From: Pseudomonadota bacterium
GTDB taxonomy: Bacteria > Pseudomonadota > Alphaproteobacteria > Rhodospirillales > Casp-alpha2
Length of the DNA stretch: 64,000 bases
Reading direction: 5' to 3'
NCBI GenBank assembly: GCA_027624235.1
Contig: JAQBYB010000004.1
Location: forward strand, 1 to 64,000
The notes below the pieces were generated by a model. It was given only the letters and a program-made list of their open reading frames with translations. It had not been told where the DNA came from and did no database searches. Below, in pieces: positions 21,379-28,648 of the stretch (position 1 is its first letter; every line of letters begins with the position of its first letter). The translations under genes were made by a program, and so were the position numbers.

Positions 21379-21520
21379 GTTATATCCCTCAAGTTTGCGT
21401 CGGTTTTCTGTATGAACGGGACCGGCCCATTTGTAAACAACCGCCGCCGTTCTTCTTTTTTTGGCCGAATTGTTATACCGTTCGGCGTCCATTCCGACAG
21501 GGCCACGCCTGGGAGTTTTC

Positions 21521-22177
21521 TTGCCTCATTTCACCGGCACCGATCTGGTTTGTTTTCGCGGCGAGCGCACGGTGTTCACCGGCCTCGACTTCGCCCTTGG
21601 CGCCGGCGACGCGCTGGTGCTGCGCGGTCCTAACGGGTCGGGTAAATCCAGCCTGCTCAGGCTGATGGCGGGGCTCAGCCGACCGCTGGCCGGCGCCGTC
21701 ACCTGGGACGATGAAAGCATTGCCGACAACCCCGAAGCCCACAACCTTCGAATGCACTACATCGGCCACGCCGACCCGGTGAAGCCGGTGTTGACGGTCA
21801 CCGAAAACCTCGATTTTTGGACGCTTTTGCGAAGCAAGGCCAACGATGAGCTGCGTCAACCGAATGGCGTCGGCGAGGCCATCAAATCAGCATTGGCGCG
21901 GCTCGGCATCGGCCATTTGGCCGACGTGCCGGGGCGATTCCTGTCGGCCGGACAAAAACGCCGGGTCAATCTGGCCCGCATCCTGGCCGCCCCGGCAACC
22001 TTGTGGCTGTTGGATGAGCCGCATACGGCCTTGGACCAGGCCGCCCTGCGCAGCCTGGATGACGCCATTGCCGAACATCGGCGGGGTGGCGGCATGGTGG
22101 TGATATCGTCCCATGCACAGGCCGCGCCGGAGGATGCCGACGCCATCGACCTCGGCCAGTTCCAGGAACGCCTCTGA
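21521..22177 (+). CDS. ccmA: heme exporter ATPase CcmA
   Basis: The ATP-binding subunit of the CcmABCD complex that releases holo-CcmE during cytochrome c maturation. Walker A is GPNGSGKSS, the signature is LSAGQKRRVNLARILAAP (an SAGQ form typical of CcmA) and Walker B is LWLLDEPHTALD. The open frame begins at 21461, but the TTG at 21521, preceded by CTGGGAG, gives the usual N terminus. It overlaps ccmB by one base and starts the ccm operon, divergent from the aminotransferase gene. Confidence 0.93.
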   Translation: MPHFTGTDLVCFRGERTVFTGLDFALGAGDALVLRGPNGSGKSSLLRLMAGLSRPLAGAVTWDDESIADNPEAHNLRMHYIGHADPVKPVLTVTENLDFWTLLRSKANDELRQPNGVGEAIKSALARLGIGHLADVPGRFLSAGQKRRVNLARILAAPATLWLLDEPHTALDQAALRSLDDAIAEHRRGGGMVVISSHAQAAPEDADAIDLGQFQERL

Positions 22178-22842
22178 TGAGAGGATTTATTCAAATCGTC
22201 CGCCGCGACCTGCATCTGGCCCTGCGCCAGGGCATGGACAGCCTGATGGTGGTGGCGTTCTTCGTCATCGCCGTGGTGCTGTTCCCGTTCGGCGTCGGGC
22301 CGGAACCCAACACCCTGGCCCGGATCGCGCCCGGCGTGATCTGGGTGGCGGCATTGCTGTCGTCGATGTTGTCGCTGGAACGATTGTTCCAGACGGATTT
22401 TGAAGACGGCAGTCTTGAATTGCTGGCGTTGCAGCCGGTCGCCCTGGAAATCACGGTGATGGCCAAGGTCTCGGTGCATTGGCTGACCACCGGCCTGCCG
22501 CTGATCATCGCGGCGCCGTTGTTGGCGGTGTTGATGAACCTGCCCATTGAGGGATTCGTGCCGCTGATCATCGCGCTTTCCTTGGGCACCCCCGCTTTAA
22601 GTCTGATCGGCGCCATCGGCGCGGCGCTGATCCTCGGCTCGCGGCGCGGCGGCATCCTGCTTTCCCTATTGGTGCTGCCGCTTTATATTCCGGTGCTGAT
22701 TTTCGGGGTCAGCGCCGTCGATGCCGTGATCGGCGGGTTTTCGGCGAAACCGCAACTGCTGATCCTGTCCGGGATATTGGTGGCGGCGCTGCCGTTGTGC
22801 CCGTGGGCGGGGGCGGCGGCGGTTCGTCAAGGAATCGAATGA
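22177..22842 (+). CDS. ccmB: heme exporter permease CcmB
   Basis: A 221-residue, six-helix inner-membrane subunit that partners CcmA. Conserved CcmB segments are FFVIAVVLFPFGVGPEPNTL, IAPGVIWVAALLSSMLSLERLF, DFEDGSLELLAL and LGTPALSLIGAIGAALILG. Translationally coupled to ccmA. An 88-base gap with a predicted FNR site separates it from ccmC. Confidence 0.95.
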   Translation: MRGFIQIVRRDLHLALRQGMDSLMVVAFFVIAVVLFPFGVGPEPNTLARIAPGVIWVAALLSSMLSLERLFQTDFEDGSLELLALQPVALEITVMAKVSVHWLTTGLPLIIAAPLLAVLMNLPIEGFVPLIIALSLGTPALSLIGAIGAALILGSRRGGILLSLLVLPLYIPVLIFGVSAVDAVIGGFSAKPQLLILSGILVAALPLCPWAGAAAVRQGIE

Positions 22843-22865
22843 CAATATTGGAAGAATTCTTAAAA

Positions 22866-22908
22866 TTGACATAAATCAATGTGAGACAAGACCCCCGGCT
22901 TGTACATT
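22866..22908 (+). promoter_or_regulatory. predicted FNR-activated promoter in front of ccmC
   Basis: TTGACATAAATCAA at 22866-22879 matches the FNR/Anr consensus TTGAT-N4-ATCAA with one difference. A -10-like TACATT lies at 22903-22908. A start site about six bases after it would place the centre of the FNR box near -41.5, the class II activation position. The promoter would drive ccmC onward when oxygen is low, on top of read-through from ccmA. Confidence 0.65.
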
Positions 22909-22930
22909 AAGCTGGCACATAAGGAATTAG

Positions 22931-23668
22931 ATGTTTCATCGTTTTGCCAATCCCACCCGTTTTTTGCGTTTTGCCGCCGTCGTCCAGCCCTGGATCGCCG
23001 GGCTTACGGTGCTGCTGATCAGCGCCGGGCTATACTTCGGCCTGTTCGACTCGCCCGCCGATTACCAACAGGGCGCCACCGTGCGCATCATGTATGTGCA
23101 TGTGCCGTCGGCCTGGATGGCGTTGTTCTGTTATACGTCCTTGGCGATCGCGTGCGGCGTGGCGCTGATCTGGAAACACCCGCTGGCCGATCTGGCGGCC
23201 AAGGCGACGGCGCCGATCGGCGCCGGGTTCACGTTTTTGGCGCTGGTCACCGGGTCGTTGTGGGGCAAGCCGATGTGGGGCGCCTGGTGGGTTTGGGATG
23301 CGCGGCTGACGTCGATGCTGGTGCTGCTTTTCCTCTATCTCGGCTATATGGCGCTCAACAACGCCTTCGACGATCCCGCCCGTGGCGCCAAGTCGTCGTC
23401 GATCCTGGCCCTGGTCGGCTTCGTCAACGTGCCGATCATCAAGTTTTCCGTCAATTGGTGGAACACGCTGCATCAACCGGCCAGCGTCGTCAAAATGGGC
23501 GGGCCGTCGATTCATGCCTCGATGTTAACGCCGCTCTTGCTGATGGGGGTCGGGTTCACTACCTATTACCTGTGGGTGATGTTGATCCGCATTCGATATG
23601 AGGTCACCAATAATAAAATCCGCGCCCTGCAACGGCGCCAGGCCGCAACCGGGGAAAGCCAGATATGA
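22931..23668 (+). CDS. ccmC: heme exporter subunit CcmC
   Basis: A 245-residue membrane protein with six helices that loads heme onto the CcmE histidine. The WWD domain is present as WGAWWVWDARLTSMLVLL, and the flanking heme-ligand histidines lie in MYVHVPSAWM and PSIHASMLTPLL. A basic C-terminal tail extends into the cytoplasm. The stop overlaps the ccmD start (ATGA). Confidence 0.97.
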   Translation: MFHRFANPTRFLRFAAVVQPWIAGLTVLLISAGLYFGLFDSPADYQQGATVRIMYVHVPSAWMALFCYTSLAIACGVALIWKHPLADLAAKATAPIGAGFTFLALVTGSLWGKPMWGAWWVWDARLTSMLVLLFLYLGYMALNNAFDDPARGAKSSSILALVGFVNVPIIKFSVNWWNTLHQPASVVKMGGPSIHASMLTPLLLMGVGFTTYYLWVMLIRIRYEVTNNKIRALQRRQAATGESQI

Positions 23669-23835
23669 CGCGCCTTTCTGAATTTCTTGACATGGGCGGC
23701 TATGCGCATTTCATCTGGCCGTCCTATGCGGTGGTCGCGGTGGTGATGCTTGGGCTGTTGATCATCAGTCAACGTGAACTGCGCACCGCGCAACGCGACC
23801 TCGACGCGCTCGATGCGCCTGAGGAGGCGCAATGA
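23665..23835 (+). CDS. ccmD: heme exporter accessory protein CcmD
   Basis: A 56-residue single-helix protein: [20 protein letters not shown] opens it, the hydrophobic helix [14 protein letters not shown] follows, then a charged tail. The MGGYAxFIWPSY signature is diagnostic. ATGA overlaps join it to ccmC and ccmE. It stabilises the CcmABC complex and promotes release of holo-CcmE. Confidence 0.93.
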
Positions 23836-24287
23836 AACGCAAGCACAAGCGCCTGACCTTCGTCGCCATCGCCTTGACTTTGCTGGGCGCGGCCACGGCG
23901 TTGGTGCTGAGCGCCTACGAAGACAGCATCGTGTTTTTCTACAGCCCCACCGATCTGGCCGAGAAAAAGATCGCCGACGGGCGGCGCGTCCGCTTGGGCG
24001 GGCTGGTCGAGGAAGGCAGCGTCAAAAAAGCCGGCGACGCCATCACCCTGTTCCGGGTCACCGACCTCACGACCACCGTCGCCGTCAGCTACAAGGGGCT
24101 GCTGCCGGACCTGTTTCGCGAAGGCCAGGGCGTCGTCGCCGAAGGCCGCCTGAAGGCCGGCGTTTTCAACGCCGAAGACGTGCTGGCCAAGCATGACGAG
24201 ACCTATATGCCGCCCGAAGTCGCCGACGCGCTGAAAAAATCCGGCAAATGGCAAGACCAGGAAAAAGACAAGGGAAAAACAAAATGA
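23832..24287 (+). CDS. ccmE: periplasmic heme chaperone CcmE
   Basis: A 151-residue protein with one N-terminal membrane anchor ([21 protein letters not shown]) and a periplasmic beta-barrel. The covalent heme attachment motif is HDETY (His121, Tyr125) in [13 protein letters not shown]. The flexible C-terminal tail is lysine-rich. It overlaps ccmD and ccmF by four bases each. Confidence 0.97.
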
Positions 24288-26275
24288 TAGCAGAAATCGG
24301 CCATTTCGCCCTGATCCTGGCGTTATTGATGGCGGTGGTGCAATCGACGCTGCCGCTGATCGGCGCCCACAAGGGCTATGAATCCTGGATGGCGACGGCA
24401 AGACCCGCGGCGATCATGCAATTCGTCCTGGTCGCCATTTCCTTCGGCAGCCTGACGCAGCTTTACCTGACGTCGGACTTTTCCGTCCTCAACGTGGTCC
24501 AGAACTCGCACACGGCGAAACCGCTGCTCTACAAAATCGCCGGCGTTTGGGCCAATCACGAAGGATCGCTGCTGTTGTGGGTATTGATTCTGGCGCTTTT
24601 CGGTTCCGCCGTCGCGGTGTTCGGCGCCAACCTGCCGCCGAAGCTGCGCGCCCGTGTGCTGTCGGTGCAGGCGATGATCGCCGTCGGCTTCTATCTGTTC
24701 ATGCTGCTGACCTCGAACCCGTTTGAGCGCATTTTTCCCGCCCCCATCAACGGCCAGGACCTGAACCCGTTGTTACAGGACCCTGGTCTCGCCTTACACC
24801 CGCCAATGCTGTATCTGGGCTATGTCGGCTTTTCCATGGCGTTTTCCTTCGCCATCGCCGCCTTGATCGAAGGCCGCGTTGATGCCGCCTGGGCGCGCTG
24901 GGTGCGGCCGTGGACGCTGGCGGCGTGGTGCTTCCTGACCGGCGGCGTCGCCCTCGGGTCGTGGTGGGCCTATTACGAACTCGGTTGGGGCGGCTGGTGG
25001 TTCTGGGACCCGGTCGAGAACGCCTCGTTCATGCCGTGGCTGGCGGGAACGGCGCTGCTGCATTCGTCGACGGTGGTCGAAAAACGCGACACCCTGAAGG
25101 GCTGGACCATCCTGCTCGCCATCATCACATTTTCGCTGAGCCTGCTGGGCACGTTCCTGGTGCGCTCCGGCGCGTTGACATCGGTGCACGCGTTTGCCAC
25201 CGACCCGGCGCGCGGCGTCTTTATCCTGGGCCTGTTGATCGTCGTCATCGGCGGCTCGCTGGCGTTGTTTGCGTGGCGGGCGCCGGCGTTGGTCAGCACC
25301 GGCGTCTTTCAGCCGATCTCGCGCGAAGGGGCGCTGTTATTAAATAATCTGATTATGGCGACGGCGGCGGCGGCGGTGTTGCTGGGCACGCTGTATCCGT
25401 TGTTTTTGGACGCCATCGGCGGCGACAAGGTTTCGGTCGGCGCGCCGTTTTTCAATGCCGTGTTTATCCCGTTGATGGTGCCGATGATCGTCGCCATGGC
25501 CGTCGGCCCGATGCTGTCGTGGAAGCGCGCCGATCTGAAACCGGCGTTTTCGCGGCTGTGGGCGGCGGCATTGGCAGCAGGCCTACTCATGGCCACCGTC
25601 TGGGTGATTAAGACCGACGGGCCCTTCATGGGTGTTATCGGGGCCGGACTGGCGGTATGGCTGTTCGCCGGCACCGGTGTCGAGCTGGCGGAACGGCTGC
25701 GGCTGTTCAAGGTGCCGCTATCGGATAGTTTCAGCCGCCTCAGGCGCACACCAAGGGCGGCCTGGGGCATGACCCTCGGCCATCTCGGGCTGGCCATCAC
25801 CATTGCCGGGATGACCGGCGCCGGGTCATGGCGGACGGAAAGCATTCAGGCGATGAAGCCCGGCGAACGGGTCACCGTCGCCGGCTATGAATTCATCTTC
25901 GACGGCGCCAAGGACGGCATCGGCCCCAACTATTCGATCGTCGAAGGCACCTTCCGCGTCTTCAAGGACGGCAAGGCGTTCGTCACGCTGCGCCCGGAAA
26001 AGCGCATCTACAACGTCTCCAAGCGCCCGACCACGGAAGCCGCCATCCACACCACCTTTTTCGGCGATCTGTACGCCGTCGTCGGCGACAAAGACCCCAA
26101 CGGCGCCTACGTCACCCGGCTTTATTTCAACCCCCTGGTCGCCTGGATGTGGGGCGGCGTCATCATCATGATCGCCGGCGGCGGCTTAAGCCTGACCGAC
26201 CGCCGCCACCGCATCGGCGCCCCGGCCAAGCGCACCGGCCAAGGCGCGGCGGTGGCACAAGCGGCTGGAGCCTAA
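24284..26275 (+). CDS. ccmF: cytochrome c heme lyase subunit CcmF
   Basis: A 663-residue polytopic protein of the heme ligation complex. The WWD motif appears as [20 protein letters not shown], with [19 protein letters not shown] and the histidine-bearing [18 protein letters not shown] segments conserved. A large periplasmic domain precedes the last helix. The ATG at 24284 overlaps the ccmE stop. Confidence 0.97.
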
Positions 26276-26280
26276 AGCCA

Positions 26281-26820
26281 GTGTTCAACCGCCTTATCTA
26301 TATCCTGCCGCTGACGGTGTTCCTGATCATGGCCGTCTATTTCGCCATCGGCCTGACCAAGGACCCCAAAATTCTGCCGTCGGCGCTGATCGACAAGCCG
26401 ATCCCGGAATTTGTCCTGCCGCCGATCGAAGGCGGCCCCGGCAAGGGGTTTTCCAGCGCCGATCTCAGGGGTAAAGGGGTATCCGTGGTCAACGTGTTCG
26501 CGTCGTGGTGCGTGCCGTGCCGGATCGAACATCCGCAGATCACCCGATTGGCTCAGTTGAAGGTGGCGACGCTGTACGGCCTCAATTACAAGGATAAGCC
26601 GGAAAACGCGCTGAAATGGCTGGCCGAACTGGGCGACCCCTATGCCGCCCACGGCGCCGACCCCAGGGGCCGCGTCGGCATCGACTTCGGCGTCTACGGC
26701 ATTCCCGAAACCTTCATCATCGATAACAACGGTATCATTCGCTACAAGTACGTCGGCCCCATCGACGCCGCGCGCCTGGAAAAAGTAATCCTGCCCATCA
26801 TCAAGAAGTTCAGCAAATGA
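26281..26820 (+). CDS. ccmG: thiol:disulfide interchange protein CcmG (DsbE)
   Basis: A 179-residue membrane-anchored thioredoxin. After one helix (LIYILPLTVFLIMAVYFAI) comes PIPEFVLPPIEG and the active site WCVPC (Cys77, Cys80). The cis-Pro region YGIPETFIIDNNGIIRYKYVG is intact. It keeps apocytochrome CxxCH cysteines reduced. GTG at 26281 is chosen as start because it gives the canonical N-terminal anchor, and the frame continues upstream only through ccmF shadow sequence. Confidence 0.94.
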   Translation: MFNRLIYILPLTVFLIMAVYFAIGLTKDPKILPSALIDKPIPEFVLPPIEGGPGKGFSSADLRGKGVSVVNVFASWCVPCRIEHPQITRLAQLKVATLYGLNYKDKPENALKWLAELGDPYAAHGADPRGRVGIDFGVYGIPETFIIDNNGIIRYKYVGPIDAARLEKVILPIIKKFSK

Positions 26821-27335
26821 GGCCGACTATGAGGATTGGGATCATCGCCTTGGCCGTGGCGTTGGGCCTGACCGGCATGACCACCGCGCCCGCTTGGGCC
26901 GTCAACCCGGACGAGGTGCTGTCCGACCCGGTGCTGGAAGCGCGCGCCCGTGAAATATCCAAGGGCCTGCGCTGCCTGGTCTGTCAGAACCAGTCGATCG
27001 ATGATTCCGACGCCGACCTGGCCAAGGACCTGCGCATCATTGTCCGCGAACGTCTGGTCGCCGGCGACAGCGACGCCCAGGTGGTCAATTTCGCGGTCGC
27101 GCGGTATGGCGATTTTGTGCTGCTGAAGCCGCCGTTCAAGGTCGCGACCCTGGCTCTGTGGCTGGGACCGCTGGCCATCGCCGCGGCCGGGTTGATGGCG
27201 GTGGTGATGTTCTTCCGACGGCGGCGCAGCGTTGGCGCGTCTGCTCAAACCAGCAGCGCCGCCATCGCGCCGAAGTCCCTGAGCGACGAAGAAAACCGGC
27301 GCATCGAGGAAATTCTAAAGGATACGTCCGCATGA
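26817..27335 (+). CDS. ccmH: cytochrome c maturation protein CcmH (short form)
   Basis: 172 residues: signal peptide, the reductase motif LRCLVCQNQSIDDSDADLAK with the CxxC pair, then a single C-terminal helix (LALWLGPLAIAAAGLMAVVMFF) and a short cytoplasmic tail. It reduces apocytochrome thiols with CcmG. This is the short CcmH of organisms that encode CcmI separately. Its start and stop overlap ccmG and ccmI by ATGA. Confidence 0.95.
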   Translation: MRPTMRIGIIALAVALGLTGMTTAPAWAVNPDEVLSDPVLEARAREISKGLRCLVCQNQSIDDSDADLAKDLRIIVRERLVAGDSDAQVVNFAVARYGDFVLLKPPFKVATLALWLGPLAIAAAGLMAVVMFFRRRRSVGASAQTSSAAIAPKSLSDEENRRIEEILKDTSA

Positions 27336-28648
27336 CGACGTTTTGGGCCGTCGCCGCCCTGATGACCGTGGCCACCCTGGCGATGGTGATCGTCCCGTTG
27401 CTGCGCAAGCCGAAGCAATCGGCGCCGCGCCGCGCCGAATTCGACCTCACCGTCTACAAGGACCAGCTTGCCGAAATCAGCCGCGATGCGGAACGTGGAT
27501 TGCTAGGCGACGCCGAGGCCAAGGCCGCCAGCGTCGAGATCAAGCGCCGCATGTTGAAAACAACGGAGACAACGGACGATGATGAAGGCGGCAATGCCGG
27601 GCAACCTTCCTTAAGCCGCGCCGTCGCCGTCATCCTTGCCGCCGCGACGCCGATTGTCGCCTTCGGGTTCTATATCGTTCTCGGCGCCCCGAGCCAACCC
27701 GACCTGCCCTACGCCAAGCGCGACATCAGCGCCGAAATTCAGGCCCGCGAAGGCCGCCTGCAAAAGGCCGAGGTGCTGCAGTTGACGGCGAAGCTGGTTG
27801 AGGCCCTGAAAAAGAGGCCCACCGACATCAAGGGCTGGCTGCTGTTGGGCCGCACCTACCTGACCATCAACGAGTTCCAGGGCGCGCTGGAAGCCTTCCG
27901 CCGCGCCACCGAGATTTCGAACCGCCGCGCCGACATCGCCGCCAGTTACGCCGAGGCGATGATCCTGGCCGAAAACGGCAAGGTCACCGCGACCGCGCGA
28001 AAACTGTTCACCGAGATTCTGGCCGGCGATCCCTTCGACCCCAAGGCGCATTATTACCTTGGTCTGGAAAAGGCCCAGGCCGGAAACCTGCGAGGCGCCC
28101 TACAGGCCTGGACGGACCTGATCCAGCTTTCACCCGCCGACGCGCCGTGGCTGGACTCCGTCCATCAGCAAATCAACAGCACCGCCAAGGAGCTGGGCAT
28201 CGACCCATCGACGGTACTAGCATCGGCCAGGGCGACGGTGCTGTCGCTGACCAGGGGCCTGGGCTCGCCCAAATCATCGTCCCTGCCGCGGATGTCGATG
28301 CCGCCCGCCGCGTCTTCCCCCGCCCCGTCTTCCCCCGGCCCGTCTTCCTCCGGCCCGTATTCCTCCGCCGCGTCTTCTCCCGCCCCGTCTTCCCCCGGCC
28401 CGTCATCCCCGCCCACTTCCTCGTCACCAAAAGGCCCGAGCGCCGCCGAGGTTAAGGCCGCCGGGCAGATGTCGGCCGGTGACCGCGACCAGATGATTCG
28501 CTCGATGGTCAACCGCCTCGCCGACCGGCTCAAGCAAAACCCCGACGATCTCGCCGGATGGCAACGCTTGGCGAAGGCCTATGAGGTGCTCGGCGATCAG
28601 GACAAAGCCGCCGCCGTCCGCAAAAAAATCGAGGCCCTGACCAAGTAG
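27332..28648 (+). CDS. ccmI: cytochrome c maturation protein CcmI
   Basis: 438 residues. Two helices flank a cytoplasmic loop rich in charged residues (LTVYKDQLAEISRDAERGLL), followed by periplasmic TPR repeats (IKGWLLLGRTYLTINEFQGA, then a second set near the C terminus with LAGWQRLAKAYEVLGDQDKA) that chaperone apocytochrome c. Between the two TPR regions lies a Ser/Pro-rich linker encoded by a 15-bp tandem repeat (28311-28415). It is the last gene of the ccm operon. Confidence 0.92.
   Translation: MTTFWAVAALMTVATLAMVIVPLLRKPKQSAPRRAEFDLTVYKDQLAEISRDAERGLLGDAEAKAASVEIKRRMLKTTETTDDDEGGNAGQPSLSRAVAVILAAATPIVAFGFYIVLGAPSQPDLPYAKRDISAEIQAREGRLQKAEVLQLTAKLVEALKKRPTDIKGWLLLGRTYLTINEFQGALEAFRRATEISNRRADIAASYAEAMILAENGKVTATARKLFTEILAGDPFDPKAHYYLGLEKAQAGNLRGALQAWTDLIQLSPADAPWLDSVHQQINSTAKELGIDPSTVLASARATVLSLTRGLGSPKSSSLPRMSMPPAASSPAPSSPGPSSSGPYSSAASSPAPSSPGPSSPPTSSSPKGPSAAEVKAAGQMSAGDRDQMIRSMVNRLADRLKQNPDDLAGWQRLAKAYEVLGDQDKAAAVRKKIEALTK
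28311..28415 (+). repeat. 15-bp coding minisatellite in ccmI
   Basis: Seven units of the type CGTCTTCCCCCGGCC encode the linker SSPAP, SSPGP, SSSGP, YSSAA, SSPAP, SSPGP, SSPPT. Because the unit is a multiple of three, unit gain or loss would change linker length without a frameshift. Confidence 0.9.

Follow-up and report, generated by a model that had tools for sequence, protein, structure and literature searches.

In the 64,000-nucleotide stretch of DNA analysed here (hereafter the window), the 88 bp that separate ccmB from ccmC probably hold a class II activator-dependent promoter for ccmCDEFGHI, whose activator would be a CRP/FNR-family protein of the FNR/FixK type. This reading draws on the layout of the site, on its conservation among alphaproteobacterial ccm loci and on the upstream region of ccmA.

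The ccm cluster and the internal promoter

By Pfam and NCBIfam assignments, the System I genes for cytochrome c maturation form one complete cluster in the order ccmABCDEFGHI at 21521–28648 on the forward strand of the window. It opens with ccmA, encoding the heme exporter ATPase (21521–22177; TIGR01189, E = 1.5e-61; PF00005), and ccmB, encoding the heme exporter permease (22177–22842; PF03379, E = 1.8e-79; TIGR01190). The first gene after the putative internal promoter is ccmC (22931–23668; TIGR01191, E = 6.1e-83; PF01578), which is followed by ccmD (23665–23835; PF04995), ccmE (23832–24287; PF03100), ccmF (24284–26275; PF16327 and PF01578), a ccmG/dsbE-type thioredoxin gene (26272–26820; assigned by PF08534 and its position in the cluster), ccmH (26817–27335; PF03918) and ccmI, encoding a CycH-type TPR protein (27332–28648; PF23914). 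Adjacent genes share a few bases at their ends; only ccmB (stop at 22842) and ccmC (ATG at 22931) stand apart, by 88 bp.

This gap contains, on the same strand, an FNR/FixK-type box, TTGACATAAATCAA (22866–22879), a 23-bp spacer (22880–22902) that is constant in length and variable in sequence within the genus, and a −10 element, TACATT (22903–22908), with TANNNT at equal distance in six congeners; box and −10 element lie where a preliminary description of this DNA had placed them. The box conforms to the palindrome TTGA-N6-TCAA (TTGAT/C-N4-A/GTCAA) and is the only site in the window that matches TTGAY-N4-RTCAA, and likewise TTGAC-N4-ATCAA, without a mismatch. The 3.03-Mb host assembly has 35 TTGAY-N4-RTCAA sites, this one among them.

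In class II promoters of E. coli, the box is centred at −41.5 and the −10 element spans −12 to −7, with 22 bp between them. The host has the class II spacing, with a box near −41.5 and a −10 element some 22–23 bp further on. The layout claimed in the preliminary description thus stands, but its "exactly" was too strong, as the host gap is 23 bp instead of 22, which places the box centre at −41.5 or −42.5, depending on a transcription start predicted from class II geometry at 22914–22915. A 23-bp gap is the local norm, used by the box-bearing members of the genus.

Between the −10 element and the ccmC start, the host has 22 bp, which include a likely ribosome-binding site for ccmC, AAGGA (22921–22925). 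The remaining congeners with a box have the ccmC start about 9 bp past the −10 element, which would make the mRNA nearly leaderless; ccmC of the host lies 13 bp farther from the box, at the same box-to-−10 distance. At six Rhizobiales loci (L231, L233, L247, L249, L252 and L259), only a few bases lie between the −10 element and an ATG of ccmC, which suggests that the ccmC mRNA is leaderless or nearly so. In the host, the ccmB–ccmC gap showed no terminator, and read-through is therefore likely, so the internal promoter would add to transcription from ccmA and not replace it. Rfam and tRNA scans returned no matches. A promoter facing the opposite way was rejected, as the minus strand of the host has no TANNNT at 22–24 bp from the box.

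Conservation of the site

Related loci were sampled from 41 related genomes, in 34 of which ccmC was found, and from GTDB contigs, which contributed 80 further loci. Enrichment was evaluated on 84 alphaproteobacterial loci with ccmB beside ccmC, with expected counts derived from dinucleotide shuffles. Conservation in relatives, which the preliminary description had proposed as a check, proved strong: a perfect TTGAY-N4-RTCAA occurs in 19 of the 84 ccmB–ccmC gaps against 0.05 expected, the loci being related and not independent events, and within the genus the perfect box is kept at six of eight readable junctions, one more carrying a single mismatch. At 58 of the 84 junctions there is no box even at one mismatch. 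Control regions gave perfect boxes at 0 of 81 loci inside ccmA, 1 of 111 inside ccmC and 1 of 64 upstream of ccmA. The last count is effectively zero, as its lone match (L044) was discarded as an artefact: ccmA there is truncated where the contig ends, so that the region took in the ccmC box.

Boxes at the junction were found in the genus of the window, in other genera of its family and in a record labelled Magnetovibrio, as well as in records labelled Rhizobium, Neorhizobium, Agrobacterium, Ochrobactrum, Brucella and Falsochrobactrum; the flanking sequence differs between box-bearing lineages. Within the genus, the TTGA/TCAA core and the TANNNT ends are invariant at 10 of 11 positions versus 7 of 40 elsewhere (p = 1.4e-5). 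When 21 loci from Rhodospirillales-related organisms and Rhizobiales were aligned on the box, a TA followed it after 23 bp in 16 and after 22 bp in 5, compared with 0–5 of the 21 loci, mostly 0 or 1, at other offsets. Across these loci, the distance from box to ATG varies and that from box to −10 element is fixed, as is characteristic of class II activator sites. Together, these comparisons support the view that the ccmB–ccmC box is under selection.

The region upstream of ccmA

Directly before ccmA, a by-eye alignment of six congeners revealed a conserved, box-free element on the forward strand (21440–21520; CCGTTCTTCTTTTTTT...TTGTTATACC), which in the congeners ends in TTTGATATACC or similar. 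In the host and the congeners compared, the region upstream of ccmA has no TTGAY-N4-RTCAA within one mismatch. The element is probably the ccmA promoter. Selection on the box, its class II geometry, its place after ccmAB and the box-free upstream region of ccmA make separate control of ccmC onward the natural reading.

Two further observations concern this region. The apparent start codon of ccmA, judged from the alignment start, is a TTG (21521–21523) in the host and six congeners (L160–L165), and such a weak start may help keep CcmA low. In some relatives (L161:1630-1760; similarly in L162, L163 and L167), a stretch upstream of ccmA that is absent from the window folds strongly (z-score −6.0) into hairpins with CTCCTC and CCCCCC loops, followed by a terminator-like stem and a T run; it has no Rfam match and is a candidate small RNA.

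The regulator and alternative readings

Searches of the host genome (G000; 94.7% complete) with PF13545, PF00027 and an FNR query did not find an FNR/FixK-type protein, which is the one weakness of the preferred reading. Among nine congeners, six have a gene for an FNR-like protein, and the four proteins compared have a Cx2Cx8C motif near the N-terminus, a fourth Cys, presumably at the place of Cys122 of E. coli FNR, and the recognition helix RPESMSR, which contains the E-x2-SR motif of FNR. For the one that was scanned, the best NCBIfam model was FnrL, with 74.7 of 300 bits; this is far below the cut-off, so FnrL membership is not claimed. The FNR-like gene adjoins hemN in three annotated congener loci (G003, G006 and G008). 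Neither hemN nor the two genes neighbouring it in congeners were found in G000, and a single assembly gap or a single deletion could thus explain the absence of all four. As hemN and its two neighbours were not found in G000, no contig shows an empty site that would establish FNR loss by synteny. FNR, hemN and the two neighbouring genes were likewise not found in a close relative, G004 (97%). The host may have an unassembled FNR, another binder of the CRP/FNR family or a recent relic. Of note, in G009 (L188:5141-5914) the creatininase-like gene that stands beside hemN in G003 is kept, and the adjacent match is a C-terminal hemN-like remnant only, possibly reflecting decay of the FNR–hemN locus.

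These absences in G000 and G004 are what would be expected if an ancestor had the FNR-driven promoter and the lineage then lost FNR and the hemN neighbourhood, leaving the box to drift without current function, and the ccmC box is indeed lost in G004, the nearest congener by CcmC identity within the set. We nevertheless regard such a relic as unlikely. In G000, box and −10 element are intact and correctly spaced despite the adjacent length change, and boxes persist before the thiolase gene in G000 and G004 and before the gene of an 89-aa protein in G000; boxes also stand upstream of genes of redox function. Other intergenic boxes of G000 precede cytochromes c, a HIG1-domain protein, a 4Fe-4S protein, a thiolase and the 89-aa protein gene, which favours a regulon still in use. 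The box upstream of the thiolase gene (acetyl-CoA acetyltransferase-like) occurs in G000, G003, G004, G006 and G009 (L022:1501-1572, L179, L180, L181 and G004:C120:5387), including genomes in which no FNR was found. The conserved small protein (about 89 aa; MxFHVFQCKxDKDFFVVTDE...) has no Pfam match, and an FNR-type box is found upstream of its gene in several congeners and the host (L196, L195, L197 and L181–L183).

The binder might instead be a CRP/FNR-family protein without Fe-S oxygen sensing, of the FixK, CrpK or DNR type or the G000 protein in L003, in which case the signal may be NO, redox state or a two-component cascade; this, too, we consider improbable. FixK and FnrN have one common motif (PMC4999443), and some congeners additionally encode proteins with PESLSR helices. 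CrpK has many sites in common with FnrL, and one of its ChIP-seq sites in Rhodobacter sphaeroides, weakly enriched (3.42-fold), was assigned to ccmD (PMC4263372); like the present box, it is a CRP/FNR-family site tied to a gene inside a ccm cluster, but the gene assigned is a different one. Against this reading, the three full CRP/FNR members found in G000 have the recognition helices RRPTVSS, TRETVAR and SHEAFYR, none of which contains E-x2-SR.

Last, we dismiss the readings that the palindrome arose by chance or belongs to a constitutive sigma-70 promoter inside the cluster: TTGACA in the box is a perfect −35 hexamer, and the site is one finding among many in a long window, but no −10 element lies 16–18 bp from this hexamer, several congeners carry TTGATC or TTGATT instead with the layout unchanged, and the observed conservation, far above the shuffles and the controls, contradicts chance.

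Proposed mechanism and relation to known systems

In the preferred reading, a class II promoter for ccmC onward, a regulator dimer would bind the palindrome centred approximately 41.5–42.5 bp upstream of the start, replace the −35 element and contact RNA polymerase at the TACATT −10 element. At low oxygen, the active regulator would thereby yield extra mRNA for CcmC, CcmD and CcmE, which deliver heme to CcmE, and the same mRNA would supply CcmF, CcmG, CcmH and CcmI for heme ligation. This mRNA would supplement the basal transcripts that read through from ccmA, and the amount of the translocase CcmA/CcmB would stay set by the ccmA promoter. That low oxygen is the signal, that the regulator is present in this host and that it binds and activates here, we infer. 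The proposal that such a promoter uncouples the exporter ATPase from the remaining genes is retained in part: the split falls between ccmAB and ccmC onward, so the permease CcmB is set apart as well, and with read-through expected, separate control of ccmC onward amounts to an addition more than an uncoupling.

In E. coli, class II FNR promoters are known and the nap-ccm operon is FNR-controlled. The present site has in common with that system an FNR-type box near −41.5 and a downstream −10 element, and the E. coli ccm genes are raised without oxygen; there, however, the entire cluster is controlled from upstream, whereas here the control site would lie inside, after ccmB. According to one abstract, the E. 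coli ccm genes are expressed anaerobically only (PMC10937671). In Alphaproteobacteria, the main text of PMC4999443 places FnrN/FixK sites upstream of ccmIEFH in Rhizobiales, and that of PMC3050613 gives cycH of R. palustris as a target of the FnrN/FixK regulon. As described there, these regulons resemble the present case in motif, pathway and later heme-ligation targets, but the main-text passages covered here name neither a ccmB–ccmC site nor any ccm target in Rhodospirillales.

Magnetospirillum gryphiswaldense has ccmABop and ccmCDEFGHIop as separate operons, both of which respond barely to oxygen (PMC9549626). Its transcription unit boundary thus likewise falls exactly between ccmB and ccmC, which was counted in favour of an internal promoter, and the small oxygen response was counted against; the one Magnetospirillum junction examined (M. 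sulfuroxidans, L214) has no box. In the open-access main texts searched, we came across no account of a conserved FNR/FixK box at the ccmB–ccmC junction, and nothing on rhizobial cycVWZXY. What is new here is a known kind of promoter at an unusual, recurrent place. The broader proposal, that Rhodospirillales-related organisms and Rhizobiales show a recurrent alphaproteobacterial design in which an FNR/FixK class II promoter set precisely at the ccmB–ccmC junction steps up the handling and ligation of heme when oxygen is low, with CcmB fixed by the ccmA promoter, is put forward tentatively, as its chances seem to fall slightly short of even.

Excess CcmB is harmful in that it leaks or drains heme from the cell, and operon order has been argued to keep its amount right (PMC11868835). 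A promoter just after ccmB would thus raise the safe part of the pathway, if that is its purpose. The switch to high-affinity or anaerobic respiration needs more cytochrome c maturation capacity, and a promoter immediately past ccmB would be a simple way to raise all later steps with CcmB not raised. The ratio of CcmAB to CcmCDE is accordingly predicted to shift with oxygen, which would bear on assembly of the CcmABCD complex.
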